From assembly GCA_021209875.1 (NCBI GenBank), contig JAGYVD010000012.1, positions 62,001-126,000 on the forward strand: a stretch of 64,000 bases of DNA, in the 5' to 3' direction. The position numbers and the translations under genes are program-made. Below the pieces are notes generated by a model. The model had not been told where the DNA came from. It did no database searches and saw only the letters and a list, made by a program, of their open reading frames with translations. This document shows positions 9,906-63,500 of the stretch, piece after piece (within the stretch, counting starts at the first letter, position 1; each line of letters starts with the position of its first letter). This stretch comes from Rosellinia necatrix. Its lineage: Eukaryota > Ascomycota > Sordariomycetes > Xylariales > Xylariaceae.

Positions 9906-9934
9906 TAGTCCTCTTTTAGGTTATATGCTTTTTT

Positions 9935-10005
9935 AAGAGTATAATTTAATGGCAAAATATGGAGTTTCAACCTCCCAATTCTCAGTTCAAGTCTGGGTAC
10001 TCTTG
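9935..10005 (+). tRNA. trnW: tRNA-Trp (TCA), copy 1
   Basis: The acceptor aagagta/tactctt is perfect and the anticodon arm ggag-tttcaac-ctcc gives TCA, which reads UGA and UGG and fits code 4. It is followed by gagttatcctttgcggagg, which is also found after copy 2 at 11764. Confidence 0.92.
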
Positions 10006-10046
10006 TGAGTTATCCTTTGCGGAGGTTAGATATGTAAAATACAAAA

Positions 10047-34650: not shown

Positions 34651-37600
34651 ATGAGCAGTATGACTTTTTTCTTTTTATTTGTATCTATATTAGCTTTAGT
34701 TTTTTTAATAGTTAATTTGTTTTTAGCTCCTCACAACCCTAAGAATTGAATAGGGAAATCAATAATTTGGGGTAAATTGCCAAACTCCGGGAACTCCCTA
34801 AAGCTTCTGGTACCAAGCCTTATATGAAAATATATTGGTGGCTGAAGTAATTACTTAGGTATGGTAACAAGTCAGAAGATATACGAAAGTTTAATGGGTA
34901 ATCGTGGATCTAAGTCAAATAAAATTAACACTTTATTTGTAAAAGAGCAACGAGTAGATGGTAGTTACATTGGATATTTAAATAAAAAAAATAATTCCAT
35001 GTTAAAGTGTACTCTAGTGGGCTTCGAAAGAAGTTATCAAGTCAAAATCCCTTCTAACCCTATAAATTTAACAAGGAATTTTTCTATGCTAGAATCTAAA
35101 CTAGATCCTTCATACGTTACTGGATTTACAGACGGTGAAGGTTCTTTTATATTAACAATAATAAAAGATAATAAATACAAATTAGGTTGGCGTGTAGCAT
35201 GTAGATTTGTAATAAGCTTACATAAAAAAGACTTAATATTATTAAATAGTATTAAAAACTTTTTTAAAACTGGTAATGTTTTTCTTAGGGGTATAGATGC
35301 TTCACAATATCGTGTTGAATCTTTAAAAGGTTTAGATATTATAATTAACCATTTTGATAAATATCCTTTAAAAACTAAAAAACAAGCAGATTATATGTTA
35401 TTTAAGTTAGCTTATAATTTAATTAAAAGCAAAAGTCATCTTACAAAAGATGGATTATCAAAGCTTGTTGCTTTAAAGGCTGTTATGAATAATGGTTGAA
35501 ATGATGAATTAAGAATTGCTTTTCCTGACATTATTCCTGTATTAAGACCTGAAACTCTATTATTTAAAAATATAGATCCTTTTTGATTAGCAGGATTTAC
35601 TGATGCCGAAGGTTGCTTTAGTGTTGTAATATTTAAATCTAAAACATCTAAATTCGGTGAAGCAGTGAAATTAAGTTTTATTTTAACTCAAAGTCTTAGA
35701 GACGAGTTTTTAATCAAAAGTTTAATTGAATATTTAGGATGTGGTTATACAAGTTTAGATGATAGAGGAACAATTGAATTTAAAGTATCTGATTTTTCTA
35801 GCATAAGAAATATTATTATTCCATTTTTCGTTAAATATCATTTACATGGTAATAAAAGTTTAGATTTTTCAGATTTTAGTTTAGTTGTATCATTAATGGA
35901 AAATAAAAAACATTTAACCAAAGAAGGTTTAGATGAAATAAAAAAAATCCGTACTAGAATGAATACAAATAGAAAACAATAGTTTAATATAAATCCCCTC
36001 GCCTAAAAGTCCATGCGATTTTTCTGTATAGAAAAATTAATAAAAAATATATTTTTTTTATAAGGCCGCTAGGCGGCCTGGGTAGCTTCGCTAAGGGACC
36101 GGGACCGGGACCGGGACCGGGACCGGGACCGGGACCGGGACCGGGACCGGGACCGGGACCGGGACCGGGACCGGGACCGGGACCCGGTGTTAATTTATAG
36201 GTATGAGAAATTTGACTCCAACGTATCAAGAAAAATATTCTATTTTTGAATGTGGTTTTCACAGTTTTTTAGGTCAAAATAGAACACAATTTGGTATTAA
36301 ATTCTTTATGTTTGGATTCATTTATTTATTATTGGATTTAGAAATTCTTTTAATTTTCCCTTTTGCTTCAAGTGAATATGTAAATAGTATTTATGGTTTA
36401 TCAATGGTATTAATTTTTACATTAATATTAACTTTAGGATTTACATATGAAATAGCAAAAAATGCATTAAAAATAGAAAGTAGACAAGTTAGATTTGATT
36501 TATTAAAAAAATCAAATGAGGTTACAGAACTATTAGGTAAAACTTCTGACTTTTCTAAGCTTGAGTGCGTACTAAAAAATATAAATAATTCTCCTGGATC
36601 TAATAATTTAGATAACTCTTTAAATAATTCTTCTGAATCAAAAATTTTAAATAACTCTTTAAATCATCATTTAAAGAAATATTACTTAAAAATAGTTAAT
36701 GCAAAGGGTCATTACTTGTATACGGAAGATGGCAGAGAAATTTTTGATGCCGCTTCAGGTGCAGCAGTCGCTTGTATAGGTTATGGTAACGAAAAAGTAA
36801 TAGAAGCTATATGTGATAAATATAAACAAGGAGTTCATTATTTATCCACATCTTATTGAAAAGATGAGGATGTTTTAAAATTGAATGATTTTCTTTTAAA
36901 AAGTACAGAATATAAAATGTCGAAGGTCTTTATAACAGGGTCAGGTTCTGACGCAATAGAAGCTAGCATAAAGGTAGCTCGTCAATATTTTTTTGATATG
37001 GATAAAGAAACTCAACGTCATGTGATTATTGCTCGTGAAAATTCTTATCATGGTAATACTCTTGGTGCTTTGAGTGTGTCAAATTTTATTGTTAGACAAG
37101 AACCGTACTATCCTATTATGACGGACAATGTTGAACACATTAGTTCTTGTAATCCTTACCGTCAACAAATAGAAGGTGAATCCGATGCTGCCTTTATAGC
37201 TAGAAAAGCCCAGGAATTGGAAAATAAGATTAATGAAATAGGACCCGAGAAAGTTATGTGTTTTATAATGGAACCTGTCAGCGGAGCTGCACTTGGATGT
37301 GTTCCAGCTCCATTAGGCTATTTAAAAGCTATGCAAGAAGTTTGCCATAAGTATGGTGTTCTTTTAATTTTTGATGAAATTATGTGTGGCATGGGTAGAA
37401 CTGGTACTTTACATGCATGAGAGGTAGAGGGTGTTGTACCTGATATAATAGTAATAGGTAAAGGACTTGCGGGTGGATATTTCCCTCTTTCGGCTATCTT
37501 AGTAAATACTAAAGTATGTGAAGGCTTGAAAACTCAAGAGTTTATTCATGGACATACCTTCGATGCCGTACCTGTGGGGGCGGTAGCTGCACTGATTGTT

Positions 37601-37975
37601 CAAGAAATTATTAAAAAATGGAATTTGCTAGAGAATGTATCTAAACAAGGAGTTTATTTACGGGATAGCTTAAAAGCTAAGTTAGGGGATCATCCCAATG
37701 TAGGAGACGTTAGAGGTATAGGTCTTTTTATTGGTATAGAATTAGTCAAAGACAAAACAACTAAGGAACCTTTCGATACCAATGTAGGGGTGGCTCAAAT
37801 AATTGTTGACTTGGCTTTGTCAGAGTATAATATGACAATATATAAAGGAACTGGCGGAGCAGATGGGTTAAATGGGGATCATATTATGATTCAGCCGCCT
37901 TTTACCATTACAGCCAAAGATGTGGATCATATAGTAGAAGTGGTCACAGCTGTAATTGAAAGAGTTTTCGAGTAA
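34651..37975 (+). CDS. nad3: NADH dehydrogenase subunit 3 fused to class-III aminotransferase (two exons)
   Basis: NAD3 is a small membrane subunit of complex I. Exons are 34651..34740 ([10 protein letters not shown] to LFLAPHNP) and 36224..37975. The join restores [23 protein letters not shown]3 identity runs to [10 protein letters not shown] (36487), where this protein normally stops. Here the frame continues without a stop: a Asn/Ser-rich linker (about 65 residues) leads into a complete PLP enzyme ending at TAA 37973-37975. The whole product is about 613 residues. Whether it is cleaved after translation is unknown. NAD3 identity is certain and the fusion is read directly from the sequence. 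Confidence 0.95.
34741..35982 (+). CDS. LAGLIDADG homing endonuclease, nad3 intron
   Basis: In frame with nad3 exon 1 to TAG 35980-35982. Motifs are [11 protein letters not shown] (about 35113) and [11 protein letters not shown] (about 35584). [11 protein letters not shown] and [11 protein letters not shown] are also present. Trp is mostly TGA. No lesion was seen. Confidence 0.87.
36095..36185 (+). repeat. (GGGACC)n hexanucleotide array
   Basis: About 15 perfect GGGACC units run up to some 40 bases before nad3 exon 2, inside the intron 3' end. This is extreme GC in an AT-rich genome. Confidence 0.95.
36488..37975 (+). CDS. class-III PLP aminotransferase module of the nad3 fusion
   Basis: The fold type I, class III aminotransferase family (ornithine, 4-aminobutyrate and similar amino-group transfers) is clear. 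Visible in order: a [21 protein letters not shown]-terminal segment, [15 protein letters not shown] (phosphate-binding), [11 protein letters not shown] (ring stacking), [26 protein letters not shown] (Asp codon 37373 contacts the pyridine nitrogen), [14 protein letters not shown] (Schiff-base Lys codon 37460-37462), GHTFDAVP (phosphate Thr), and a C-terminal small domain to ERVFE. All key residues are present. TGA encodes Trp at 36857 and 37418, so it is adapted to mitochondrial decoding. Codons look slightly more GC-rich than nad3. Substrate cannot be told from sequence. Origin by transfer from a nuclear or bacterial gene is inference. Confidence 0.9.
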
Positions 37976-39792
<1,817 letters not shown>

Positions 39793-39841: not shown

Positions 39842-42247
39842 ATGTTTAAATTATTTATATTAGGTTCAACCTTTATTATTACTAGTCTGTTATTTGTTTG
39901 GTTATTTGATAAAGAAATTTTCATTAATTTATCTTATGTTATTAATAAGAGCTGTTTCTTTAATGATATTATAGTTCCTGTTGTAGGTTATATATTTATA
40001 TTATTAACTTTACTAGGGGTAAGTGGTCCCCGTTTATATTTAGAAATATGACCTCTTATTTTAAATATATTTTTAGAAATATATTTAAATAATAAGTTAC
40101 GAGTTGAAAAGTATTTTAAGTGAATATTAGCTTTTTTTTTTATAATTCATCTATGTTTTAACACTCTTGTATTTACGATTTATGAGATAAACGTAATAGA
40201 TTATTTGTTTAATTTTTTACCTTTTATTGGCTTAATAGGATTAGGTTATATTAACCCGGCTTTAGTTAAAAATGAGTTAATATTTAGATTTAATCTTTTT
40301 TCTATTCTGTTATCAATATGTTTTATTTTAGGGGTTTTCTTTTTTACGTTTATTTATATTTATGAACCTTACTATTTAAAAATTTATATTTCGTTGTTTT
40401 TTTTTTTTAGATTTATTTGTATAATATTAACCCTTGTTTATACTATTATTTATTGGGTTTATATCCCTTTAAAAAAGGAGAATCTAATTAAATTTGGTGT
40501 TTTGTTATTTAGCTTATTACTTGTTGGTACTTTATTTAACACAATAGGGAAATTATCATCATATATATTTTTAAATATGAAGAACCCAGTTCCTTACCTG
40601 TTTAAGAATAATTCTCTTTATACAGACCTGGAACATCCAAAAGTGGATTTTAATAAATTATATGATGAAATTTTACCAGGTAGAGATCTATCCAGTGAAG
40701 ACTTATTGGTAATTAATGTTAATAATAATTATAAATGACCTAAGTCTTCTATATTTGATTTAATCGAACTTTCATGCTTAAAATATGTAAAGGTTAATGA
40801 AAATTTAGTTAAATTTAATTATCAAGGACATTTAGAAGGTAAATTACCTAAGATTAGTTTATTTAAAGGGTTTATTGCATTAGATCTAAATAAACATATA
40901 GCTAAGAGTTTTTTACTTTCAGATACTAGATTGTTTGATTTTTCCCCTTCTATTTGAAATACACGTCCTGAATTAATAAAAAATTATTATAGATACATCG
41001 AAGTTCCAGCTATTTATGAAAAGAATGGTTTTTGATGCTTTGATCTAAAATTAAATCACAGTGTAATACTTGTAAGATATGATCCTTATCTTCAAGAAGG
41101 TTTTAAGATTCAAAATTCTAATGGTAGAAGAGAAGTATATAGTTTTAAAGTAATTTTTCCCTATAAAGAATCAGGTTCGCTTTATAAAAAAATGAATATT
41201 ATTAATAAATTAGCCAAAATTGAGTCTATTCTTTTGGACTCTTCTTTTGATAATCGTTATTTATTAGACATACCTAGAAGTTATTATTATAAAAATAAGG
41301 ATAATTCTAGTATATTAGTAACCCTTCCTTTTAATATTCAAATCGCAAATTTAAATCCTCTTATTACGGACAGGCTTATTCTTAGACCTCTGAGTCTTTT
41401 AGATGCTGAGGCCTATAGTGAAATATTCAATGACCCAGAAAGTAATTGAAATAATAGCTTAACTTTTAGTAACCTTAGCGTAGCCTGGGCTGAATCGCAA
41501 ATAAAGCGTAATATTAAGACTTATGAAGAAACAAATGCAAGTATTTCTTTAGGTGTATTTTTAAAGAATATGCAAGGGGGAGAAGGTGAATTAATAGGTG
41601 AAATGGAAGGATCATTATACACGGGACGTAGTGAATTTTTCCCTACTGTTTCTTACATATTAAAAAAAGAGTACTGGGGTAAAGGATACGGGAGCGAAAC
41701 TTTAGAAGCATGAATAAATTATTATTTTAGTCTTCCAACCAGAGAAGTTGAGTTCAAACTACCTGTTAATTTTATCGAAGCTAAATATAAAAATAAGACA
41801 ACTAATTTAATGAGTGTTACAACTTTTGATTTTAATTATAGAAGTATTAATTTGCTGAAAAAAATGGGGTTTAAATTATGGTACTTAAATCAAACTGTTT
41901 GGACAACAGAGGATAACTTAATCAGGCGTTTAGTGGAGAATAGGGGGTTTGATTTGCTGGAGCCTACAGGGTATAAAGTATATGATACACTTTTTACCTT
42001 TTGAATATATTTTGATAATAAATATATGGAAGAATTTAATATCTATGTTTATTGATTTTTCTTTTTATTAGCTAAAGATGAGCTATTTATTACTAAATGG
42101 TATAGTAATGATAATAATTGTAAGCCTCTTGAGTCTAATGGGTATCTACAAGGTAAATACAATCTTAAGGATAATAAAGATTTGCATATGTATGTATGAA
42201 TATTATCTGAAGATGAATTTAGAAAAAAAAAAAGAGGTAATACATAA
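39842..42247 (+). CDS. membrane protein with C-terminal GNAT acetyltransferase domain
   Basis: A free-standing 801-codon ORF between atp9 and cox2, open from ATG 39842 to TAA 42245 with TGA as Trp. The N-terminal third has about six hydrophobic helices (from FILGSTFIITSLLFVWLF to FGVLLFSLLLVGTLF). The middle is soluble and unrecognised. The C-terminal part is GNAT-like of the RimJ/RimL type: ITDRLILRPLSLLDAEAYSE near 41366, the acetyl-CoA loop KKEYWGKGYGSETLEAW near 41664, and RSINLLKKMGFKLWYL near 41842. GNAT ORFs are known from some ascomycete mitogenomes as I recall. The substrate is unknown. The AT-rich, TGA-using codons indicate long residence. Confidence 0.75.
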
Positions 42248-60500: not shown

Positions 60501-63500
60501 GTCAGAGTTGTCTTTATAAAATGTAGTGGTAATATAGAATATTTAATTAATTTTTATTCTCATTTAAGTAAAATAGGGTGACTTCACCGTAAAGCAAAAA
60601 AACCTTATTTAAATAAAGTTATTTCTAAAAATAATAAGTTATTATATTATTGAAGAGTAGAAAGTGATTATTTAACCGAATTTGACTGATTATATGAAAT
60701 GTTCTATAAAGATGGCTCGGCCATAAAAACTATACCTTCAAATTTAAAAGATTATTTAACACCTTTATCTCTTACTATATGATATTTAGATAATACAGAT
60801 AAGTTATATTTATCCAGTCACCAAAGTTTTCATTTAAATAATGAAAATTTAAATTATATATCTCAAATATTAAAAGATAAATATGGTATTAATACATCTT
60901 ATAGATTAGAAAGTAAAGGTAAAGTTGGTTTTTATTTTGAAAACCATAGCTTAAGTAATTTTAGAGGGATAGTAAAGCCTTATATTTCTGCTTCTTTACA
61001 ATATAAATTAAACGAACCACATAATAAATTAAGTATGTGAAGTAATTTAGGGTTGCTTTTAAGCAAAAGTACTACTCCTTTAGTGCAGAATAGATTGCTT
61101 GGGCAGAGAAATTATTCTACTAGTGTAAAAAATATAAAGTACTCAACTACATATAAAAAAGAATATATATTGACTCAGTAGCTTGCGCACAAAAAGAAGC
61201 ATTAATAGGTATAATATTAGGTGACGGTTTATAGAAAGATCCAAATCTACTCATAATGCCCGAATTAGAATAGAGCAATCTTATCCTGAAAAAAGTGAAT
61301 ATTTAAAAAGTTTACATGAATTATTAGAACCTTTGACTGCAATGGAACCTACATTATTAACAAGAAAAAATTAAAAGAGAGGTGTTATAACTCAATCCTT
61401 GTATTTTAGAACTTTAGCTATGCCTTGTTTAAATTATTATTACGAATTATTTTATAAAAATAATATAAAAGAATTCCTAATAATTTAGAAGAATTATTGA
61501 CAGCTAGAGGGTTAGGCTTGCGCACCGTGTTAAAAAAAGATGTTTTTTTATACCGCTCCTGCGTATCCATACCCTAATCCTTTTTGGATACGGATCAGGA
61601 TCAGCAAGGGACCTTGGAGCTAAATATTAATAGGTGATGGTATAAAAAATTAATAAGTGATGGTATATAAAATTTATAGTGATGATGGAAAAAGTATTTT
61701 TATTTAATTTGGATAAAATGCAATTTTCATACAACCCTACGTTATGAAATTAACGTATGTTATTACAATAGTTTAATTTTTAAATATACAATGTACATTA
61801 CACTAATACTTTTTTTGATTGGAATTTTGGTATTCGTTTTAAATAGAAAAAATATTATATTAATATTTATCATCGTCTCGTTTTATTACGAGATAATGGT
61901 ATTAGCTATATCATACCTTATATTGGTAAGTTTTTTAAATACGGAAAAGGGCGAAACCTGAATGATTTGCATTATTGCTTTAGTTTATGGTTTAGGTAAT
62001 TTAGCAGCTTTTTATAGTTTAAGATTAAGTTTGAATCTTCAACCTATGTATTTAAATAGAATAACTTTACCTTTATTAGGGTCTATAGTTTCTGGCTTTT
62101 TTGGTAGAAAAGCTGGGGTTAGCTCTACACAGTTACTTATTACATATTCTAGAATAATGACTACAATATTAGAGCTTATAGCTTATTTTGAGGTAGGCTC
62201 TAATACTATATATAAGTCTAAATTTCATAGTTTAGGCACTAATCGTAATATAAAATTTATATGCAATAATAAGGTTTATTTTTCAACAAGCGCGCGTAGC
62301 GCACTGGGCTGCGGAGCCGGGGATATCAATAACCTAGAATCTAAAGTATTTTACTCTAATACTGATGTTGATAAAGAAAAAATAGTTAAAGAAAATCAAA
62401 ATAAATCTGGAGTTTATCGATGAACTAGTTTAAGTACAAAATATGCGTATATAGGAAGTAGCGTAAATCTAGGTAGAAGATTTAAAAATTATTATAGTTA
62501 TTCTTTTCTTACTAGAAATAAAAATATGAATATATCCAGAGCTATTTTAAAATACGGTTATTCGAACTTTAGTCTTGAAATATTAGAATATTGCACACCT
62601 GAAGAGTGTATTAAAAGAGAACAGTATTTTATAGATAATTTTAACCCTGAATATAATATATTAAAGATAGCAGGTTCAACATTAGGTTATAAACATACAG
62701 AAGAAACCTTAGCTAAATTTAAAGAAAGGAAATTAACACCTAATCACTTGGAAAATTTAAGAGCTCATTTAATGATATTAAATCAAAGCGAAAAGCTTAG
62801 ATCAGGTGCAAAGGAGCGAATGTTAAAATTAAATGAGGCAAAAGGTATAAAGGTAGAAGTAACTGATATTAGAACAAATGAAACTATAATATATAAATCC
62901 TTACGTGATGCAGCCAAAGCTTTAAATACAGATTTAAAAGCAATGCATTATAATGAAAGAATACAAAAAGAAAGAGGTATATCTGTACCCTTTAAAAAAA
63001 CATTATTATATAAGGATAAAAAGAGATTAAATATTCTCGTTCTTTTAGTAGGAGGATGACGGAGGTAAATCCGTTCACCATCAGACTATCCTTCATACTA
63101 GAGCATTTAGTAAAGAAGATGTTGAATATCGGCTTCGCACAAACAGTTTTGAATAAAAATTTTGAATTAATCACAAGATTAGAAGAGAAAACACAAGATC
63201 AATGAGTTATATATATACCTGTTCTGAGCCTTCGGCTCTCGCCTTCGTGCGATTTTTCTGTATAGAAAAATTAAAAAAATAAAGTTAAAAGATATTGTAG
63301 GTCCATATATGCATAAATCTATGTTGTATAAAGTATAAGTTTAGTTATAGTTAGTAATAAAAATATATTAAATAATAATAAAATAGAAAATATATTATAA
63401 ATATTGCATAATTTAAACATGTAAATTTAGATTATTACTAGCAATATCGTTGAAAACGATTAAATAAATAGAGTTAATTTATAGATCGTAGGTTATTTTA

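Follow-up and report, generated by a model that had tools for sequence, protein, structure and literature searches.

Can a core respiratory gene of a fungal mitochondrion also encode a metabolic enzyme in the frame that it opens? Mitogenomes are generally regarded as coding for little beyond respiratory, ribosomal, and mobile-element proteins, with a separate open reading frame (ORF) for each. The question is raised by nad3 in a 64,000-nucleotide stretch of DNA (the window; positions 62001-126000 of contig C12) from Dematophora (Rosellinia) necatrix, whose assembly comprises 49.1 Mb in 12 contigs. This contig carries respiratory genes and tRNA clusters, and its features repeat about 114.7 kb apart, as they would if the assembly had gone round a circular molecule more than once; it looks mitochondrial. 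Here nad3, which encodes the ND3 subunit of complex I, runs in frame into a class-III pyridoxal phosphate (PLP) aminotransferase (AT). The parts of the locus are the following.

34651..34740, plus strand: nad3 exon 1, 30 codons with the first transmembrane (TM) helix, immediately 3' of the stop of nad2; boundary by protein homology
34741..36223, plus strand: nad3 intron; its LAGLIDADG ORF continues the frame of exon 1 as far as a stop at 35982 (motif read in translation)
36224..36487, plus strand: core of nad3 exon 2, with the other two TM helices (Pfam PF00507, hydropathy)
36488..36541, plus strand: native ND3 C-terminal tail of 18 residues, supported by alignment with the ends of nad3 proteins from elsewhere
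36542..36649, plus strand: Asn/Ser-rich linker, about 36 codons
36650..37972, plus strand: class-III PLP AT domain (PF00202; predicted model and fold match)
36857..36859, plus strand: TGA read as Trp219, Trp in 48/78 aligned ATs
37373..37375, plus strand: Asp391, invariant in 78/78 aligned ATs
37418..37420, plus strand: TGA read as Trp406, Trp in 77/78 aligned ATs
37460..37462, plus strand: Lys420, invariant in 78/78 and aligned with solved transaminases
37973-37975, plus strand: TAA stop of the fusion

Under genetic code 4, positions 36203-37975 formed one ORF of 590 aa with two TGA codons and both Pfam domains; residue numbers count from 36203. This confirmed that the in-frame nad3-AT fusion in mitochondrial DNA (mtDNA), which an earlier note on this DNA had claimed, is real, and the positions given there for the Asp (37373), the Lys (37460), and the two TGA codons (36857 and 37418) held as well. 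The Met at 36203 falls inside the intron, and the spliced product is predicted to have about 613 aa, with exon 2 starting at about 36224 (Tyr), as placed by protein homology. Oxidored_q4 (PF00507, nad3) matched residues 7-90 (E 6.5e-19), exon 2 alone scored 68.4 bits against a cut-off of 23.3, and hydropathy gave three hydrophobic stretches for the spliced ND3. While the earlier note had ended ND3 at 36487 and followed it with a linker of roughly 65 residues, alignment with other nad3 proteins extended the native tail to 36541 and left a shorter linker, partly built of a 39-bp tandem repeat (36582-36664). At 6.3% stops per codon, the chance of 54 open codons is 0.03, and that of 495 is 1e-14.

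The AT part was found to be complete with its key residues intact, in agreement with the earlier note. Aminotran_3 (PF00202) covered residues 159-584 (36677-37954; E 1.1e-82) with 278.4 bits against a cut-off of 30.5, spanning profile positions 8-402 of 403. K420, D391, G248, S249, T452, and R504 were each present in all 78 aligned ATs and S247 in 77, as counted in an 83-row alignment without its last five rows, which are nad3 proteins lacking an AT. Going by the family, Asp391 would be the Asp that pairs with the pyridine nitrogen and Lys420 the Schiff-base Lys of PLP, and the set also takes in the residues expected to bind phosphate. Two of the three Trp codons are TGA, and both stand at the Trp positions listed above; the mitochondrial code is needed, as had been claimed. 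In the AlphaFold2 model, pLDDT was at least 90 for 390 of the 590 residues, nearly all of them within the AT, and mostly below 50 in the linker. The top 50 Foldseek matches of this model in the PDB were aminotransferases, several titled omega-transaminase (best E 1.4e-41), and the AT part is thus predicted to have the fold-type I transaminase fold. Because the best NCBIfam model, NF005685 (PRK07483), scored 473.3 bits, under its curated cut-off of 485, we claim no substrate.

A mistake in assembly or in base calls, or a nuclear AT wrongly attached to nad3, is a scarcely credible source of this ORF, and we found nothing in its favour. The UniRef protein P0001 of D. necatrix, named 'NADH dehydrogenase subunit 3', is the same 590-aa ORF and differs at 3/590 residues (99% identity), and similar joins occur in other records. 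Presumably, P0001 derives from the published D. necatrix mitogenome, for which Illumina sequencing gave a mean depth of 3622x (PMC11404375). Moreover, one TGA stands at a Trp kept in 77/78 ATs. A nuclear AT homologue does exist on contig C7; it is, exon by exon, 40-52% identical to the window AT and 79-94% identical to a Xylaria nuclear gene. The misassembled nuclear contig that the earlier note had considered as a refutation is hence contradicted both by this diverged copy and by P0001. The exon-2 part of nad3 had a single match in the 49.1-Mb assembly (E<=10), so ND3 has to come from the fusion ORF.

How could one ORF supply both proteins? By our estimate it is just about probable that nad3 encodes a polyprotein that yields ND3 and a soluble dimeric AT after proteolysis in the matrix. 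In the scheme that we infer, mitochondrial ribosomes would translate one ORF of about 613 codons from the nad3 start after splicing. ND3 would be inserted with its C terminus on the matrix side, the AT domain would fold in the matrix, and a matrix or membrane protease would cut the tail or the linker. Complex I would thereby receive its ND3, and the freed AT could dimerise and, presumably, act as an enzyme. The orientation would follow from the three TM helices together with the TM1-TM2 loop of ND3, which lies on the matrix side. Release of the AT is favoured because class-III ATs are dimers with their active sites at the interface. The join has probably been retained for the functional translation start that it provides. 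One frame holding both domains, the identical D. necatrix ORF in P0001, the invariant active site, and a confident AT model behind a flexible linker support the polyprotein, as does the lack of any ATG from which a whole AT could start: there is none in frame in 36488-36917, and 36917 already lies within the AT fold.

That nad3 and the AT are expressed apart, by RNA processing or from a non-ATG start near the AT, is quite improbable in our view. In-frame alternative codons do occur near the AT start, namely ATA (36581, 36692), ATT (36644), and TTG (36716, 36881), and there are related mitochondrial-type ATs that have ORFs of their own, about 460 aa long. Against such expression, the region has no ATG, and a nad3 message without a stop would have no end.

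Does the join recur elsewhere? Three protein searches, each scoring a capped set of candidates and with the best 120 of each retained, gave 316 proteins, and all counts from them are minima. At least nine database proteins combine nad3 with an AT (P0001, P0002, P0003, P0016, P0121, P0124, P0132, P0139, and P0156), at least one joins nad4L to an AT almost without a linker (P0027), and at least two join nad5 to an AT (P0022 and P0237). The eight nad3-AT proteins besides P0001 add support to the polyprotein. The earlier note had pointed to related species for the same junction, where it proved present and recurrent (including in Nemania diffusa), and its reservation that relatives might already be annotated was justified: UniRef carries the subunit 3 name, and the JGI names of P0003 and P0156 cite both halves. 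The two parts of the window protein were similarly conserved, with identities of 74% (AT) and 72% (ND3) to P0002 and 71% (AT) and 76% (ND3) to P0003, which also supports the polyprotein. In P0002, P0003, P0016, and P0121, nad3 and the AT are separated by a membrane domain of about 200 residues, which also precedes the AT in the nad3-less P0009, P0004, P0005, P0007, and P0084 (partially in P0006); the window fusion and P0001 are without it. The predicted model of P0121 (mean pLDDT 76.9) has about five long helices in this spacer, too little to fix its topology. Putative atp9-AT fusions seen by eye (P0005, P0256, P0089) are not claimed, as Pfam gave P0256 alone, at E 0.077 and under the cut-off. 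A scan of viral contigs for DNA of the relatives returned no relative.

The same comparisons bear on whether the AT is a passenger or a decaying ORF riding on nad3 with no enzymatic role. The cargo does vary: P0124, P0132, and P0156 have identical nad3 cores (79/79) and ATs only 47-50% identical, which suggests that the cargo was exchanged or else evolves very fast. Further, among the best 120 long nad3 matches (proteins of 451-1435 aa), 38 off the complete-nad3 pattern were left out and 82 kept, one of which had an extension below 120 residues; the C-terminal extensions of the other 81 fell into 38 groups without mutual BLAST similarity, and the nad3 3' end seems, from these comparisons, to be a spot at which additional reading frames accumulate. 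Complete nad3 with long unrelated extensions is found, for example, in P0128, P0137, P0122, and P0203. A passenger would, on the other hand, hardly be expected to keep a full-length domain, an active site invariant in 78/78, and 71-74% identity to the ATs of P0002, P0003, and P0121. We therefore rate a role-less AT as unlikely.

Next to be asked is where the AT came from. In a 194-row tree, the window AT was one of 117 rows that formed a mitochondrial-type clade, and the other 77 rows were of nuclear type (likelihood-ratio support by SH-aLRT of 100 for both), and a 50-row tree gave the same split (100/100). In the 50-row bootstrap tree, the window grouped with P0002, P0003, and P0121 (100/98). 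The phylogeny that the earlier note had suggested thus sets the window AT apart from the nuclear homologue, and the trees together with the C7 copy left a nuclear or recently nuclear-derived AT unsupported. The AT appears to belong to a lineage already resident in fungal mtDNA. Of the earlier proposal that a metabolic gene was captured by translational fusion to nad3, the fusion stands; the AT, however, need not have been captured in this way, AT genes being already present in fungal mtDNA.

One branch inside the 117-row clade comprises 27 rows, 14 of them with a longest contig above 0.4 Mb and so presumably nuclear; its named genera are, as we take them, Leotiomycetes. The clade also includes two proteins from Diaporthe, whose contigs measure 0.65 and 2.95 Mb. 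Because presumably nuclear rows sit inside a mitochondrial-type clade, the AT gene would have moved between mtDNA and the nucleus, in either direction. We had looked to the nuclear Leotiomycete copies as matrix-targeted proteins; this support for a matrix role failed because 17/19 of the N termini examined have at least two acidic residues in the first 30, unlike targeting peptides. The D. necatrix copy on C7 matches a nuclear type in which an AT precedes exo70 domains (PF00202 + PF03081 + PF20669), seen in 25 of the best 120 matches (e.g., P0249, P0251, P0252, P0264); such proteins either reflect a genuine fusion in the nucleus or result from gene models having been merged in one species after another.

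Forcing the nine nad3-AT rows of the 50-row set into one clade, with the window standing in for P0001 and rows grouped by fusion partner after the first tree had been seen, cost 143 log-likelihood units and was rejected (p-AU 5.2e-7). A single clade was not rejected for nad3-AT group B (p 0.185) or for group A plus P0016 (p 0.159). The minimum number of changes on the tree was 4 for nad3 versus other and 6 for fusion partner. On the simplest account nad3-AT would have arisen at least twice; the alternative is one old join repeatedly lost, which rejection of a single nad3-AT clade does not by itself exclude.

Is there a trace of processing at the junctions? In PMC8847149, the combined consensus of mitochondrial processing peptidase (MPP) and ICP55 is given as RX(F/Y/I/L)↓(S/A)(S/T), and internal cutting by MPP is described as conserved among fungi and plants. 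Within the first 120 residues of the 81 nad3 extensions, R-x-[FY]-[SA] occurred in 17, compared with 4.6 in shuffles (0/200 reached this). No excess was seen in the controls: 11 versus 12.1 for lysine, 6 versus 9.2 for acidic, 4 versus 4.9 for the reversed motif, and 7 versus 13.4 for the distal part. The test was not blind, since the idea came from reading P0004, P0005, P0012, P0016, P0084, P0123, and P0137; after 15 proteins read earlier were dropped, which do not include those seen solely when the first 75 residues of the extensions were viewed before the test, 14/66 remained versus 3.9 (0/1000). In the window, 30 plus-strand stop-to-stop frames of at least 150 codons held R-x-[FY]-S-[ST] 6 times versus 0.66 expected (0/300), a pattern chosen after the sites had been listed; a K control gave 3 versus 1.24 (41/300), and the looser R-x-[FY]-[SA] gave 15 versus 6.97 (5/300). 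The motif excess in nad3 extensions and window ORFs supports the polyprotein, and it is plausible, judging from these motifs, that the presequence machinery processes some mtDNA-encoded fusions. As a separate observation, R-x-[FY]↓S sites at 35083, 42999, 44414, 49918, and 59659 stand shortly 5' of endonuclease domains, in ORFs that continue host exons, and may perhaps reflect a general release of intron-encoded proteins.

Three results weigh against release by such proteolysis. R-x-[FY]-[SA] was absent from the ND3 tail and linker of the window, which is the main weakness of the polyprotein reading. When one protein per group was counted, the R-x-[FY]-[SA] excess was modest (5/34 versus 1.57; reached by 22/1000 shuffles), and that of the published R-x-[FYIL]-[SA]-[ST] was not significant (2/34 versus 0.70; 150/1000).

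If the chain stayed uncut, complex I would carry an AT domain on the matrix side of ND3, an outcome we judge somewhat unlikely on these sequence data. It would fit a window linker that is long, disordered, and without a canonical cleavage motif, unlike P0016, which does carry an R-x-[FY]-[SA] site in the form R-F-F↓S; it would also fit the nad4L-AT protein P0027 with almost no linker, and a C terminus of ND3 that, with three TM helices, should face the matrix. Dimerisation speaks against it, as the tether would then join two complexes or leave the enzyme monomeric.

Comparison with known systems places the proposed polyprotein among partial precedents. Imported polyproteins are reportedly cut internally by MPP (Friedl 2020; Oshima 2005), and nad3-AT would work alike if its chain were cut in the matrix; those proteins are nuclear encoded and imported, whereas nad3-AT is encoded in mtDNA, begins with a membrane protein, and has a linker without an MPP-type site. 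In-frame intron-encoded endonuclease ORFs of fungal mtDNA likewise continue a host frame into a cargo protein, and some in the window carry R-x-[FY]-S-[ST] before the endonuclease domain; their host part, however, is one exon, while nad3-AT has a whole ND3 and a metabolic enzyme as cargo. P0121 of N. diffusa ('NADH-ubiquinone oxidoreductase chain 3', 892 aa) also runs from nad3 in frame into an AT 71% identical to that of the window, but differs by its intervening membrane domain (about 200 residues) and by a nad3 core that has diverged to 53% identity with that of the window.

Separate AT genes in mtDNA have been published: the Annulohypoxylon stygium mtDNA has a class-III AT-like gene, located between atp9 and cox2, and an AT fragment besides (PMC6140425), that of Pestalotiopsis fici a stand-alone aminotransferase (PMC11277600), and intron-encoded aminotransferases are mentioned (PMC7902536, PMC8393795). 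The A. stygium AT (P0009) shares with the window AT its lineage (a 12-row clade), its location in mtDNA, the order, and a nad3-atp9-cox2 neighbourhood, but is a separate gene with an N-terminal membrane domain and no nad3. For the D. necatrix mitogenome, the published gene list consists of 14 protein genes, rps3, and nat1, and the available part of the paper mentions neither an AT nor a fused nad3 (PMC11404375). No nad3-AT fusion appeared in the parts seen of PMC8260586, PMC8706829, and PMC11889515 or elsewhere in the literature searched, a partial coverage that does not establish absence from print.

The surroundings of the fusion include two further features.

38404..38589, plus strand: atp9 first exon, the next gene 3' of the fusion (41.1 bits, above cut-off)
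9934..10006, plus strand: tRNA with anticodon UCA, labelled SeC by ARAGORN

We infer that this tRNA is the expected reader of TGA as Trp. A GIY-YIG-bearing stretch lies 3' of the atp9 first exon. The nad3 intron had no match to Rfam group I models at the gathering threshold. Just 5' of exon 2 it holds a perfect (GGGACC)x15 array (36095-36184), the only such array in the window, and at 36014-36062 a piece of about 35-50 bp with many copies on the mitochondrial contig, on both strands at 87-98% identity, which is a dispersed repeat family. An 801-aa ORF at 39842-42247, probably the nat1 listed in the available part of PMC11404375, has six hydrophobic stretches, a middle region, and a GNAT acetyltransferase domain (PF13302), in that order, and is a second join of an enzyme and a membrane domain in the same mtDNA. 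A membrane domain common to the AT proteins and this ORF was rejected (hhalign probability 0.1%); BLAST matches between the two membrane parts were weak and came from runs without composition correction or masking. At 61791-63068, diverged nad4L-like and nad5-start-like stretches, seen by eye, run in frame into a GIY-YIG ORF, and at about 55758 there is a nad4L match that exceeds the cut-off.

AT genes in fungal mtDNA were already known, and the fusion protein stood in databases under the subunit 3 name; as far as our searches reach, what is new is that a metabolic enzyme has repeatedly been joined to genes of complex I and that some junctions bear processing-like motifs. A wider reading, which we hold tentatively as possible, is that nad3 chiefly, and also nad4L and nad5, would be platforms for unrelated in-frame cargoes, the AT being one, in the mtDNA of filamentous fungi. 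Many of these cargoes would be released by MPP and ICP55, whose usual task is the trimming of imported proteins. Since its membrane spacer and a visible cut site are missing, D. necatrix may keep a true ND3-enzyme hybrid. Either way, a core gene of complex I, with one match in the assembly, doubles as coding frame for a metabolic enzyme, and the AT has been joined to three different complex I genes. Annotating such ORFs as plain 'nad3' hides these fusions. If cut, the chain would be an mtDNA-encoded, matrix-processed polyprotein; if uncut, it would give complex I an enzymatic extension.

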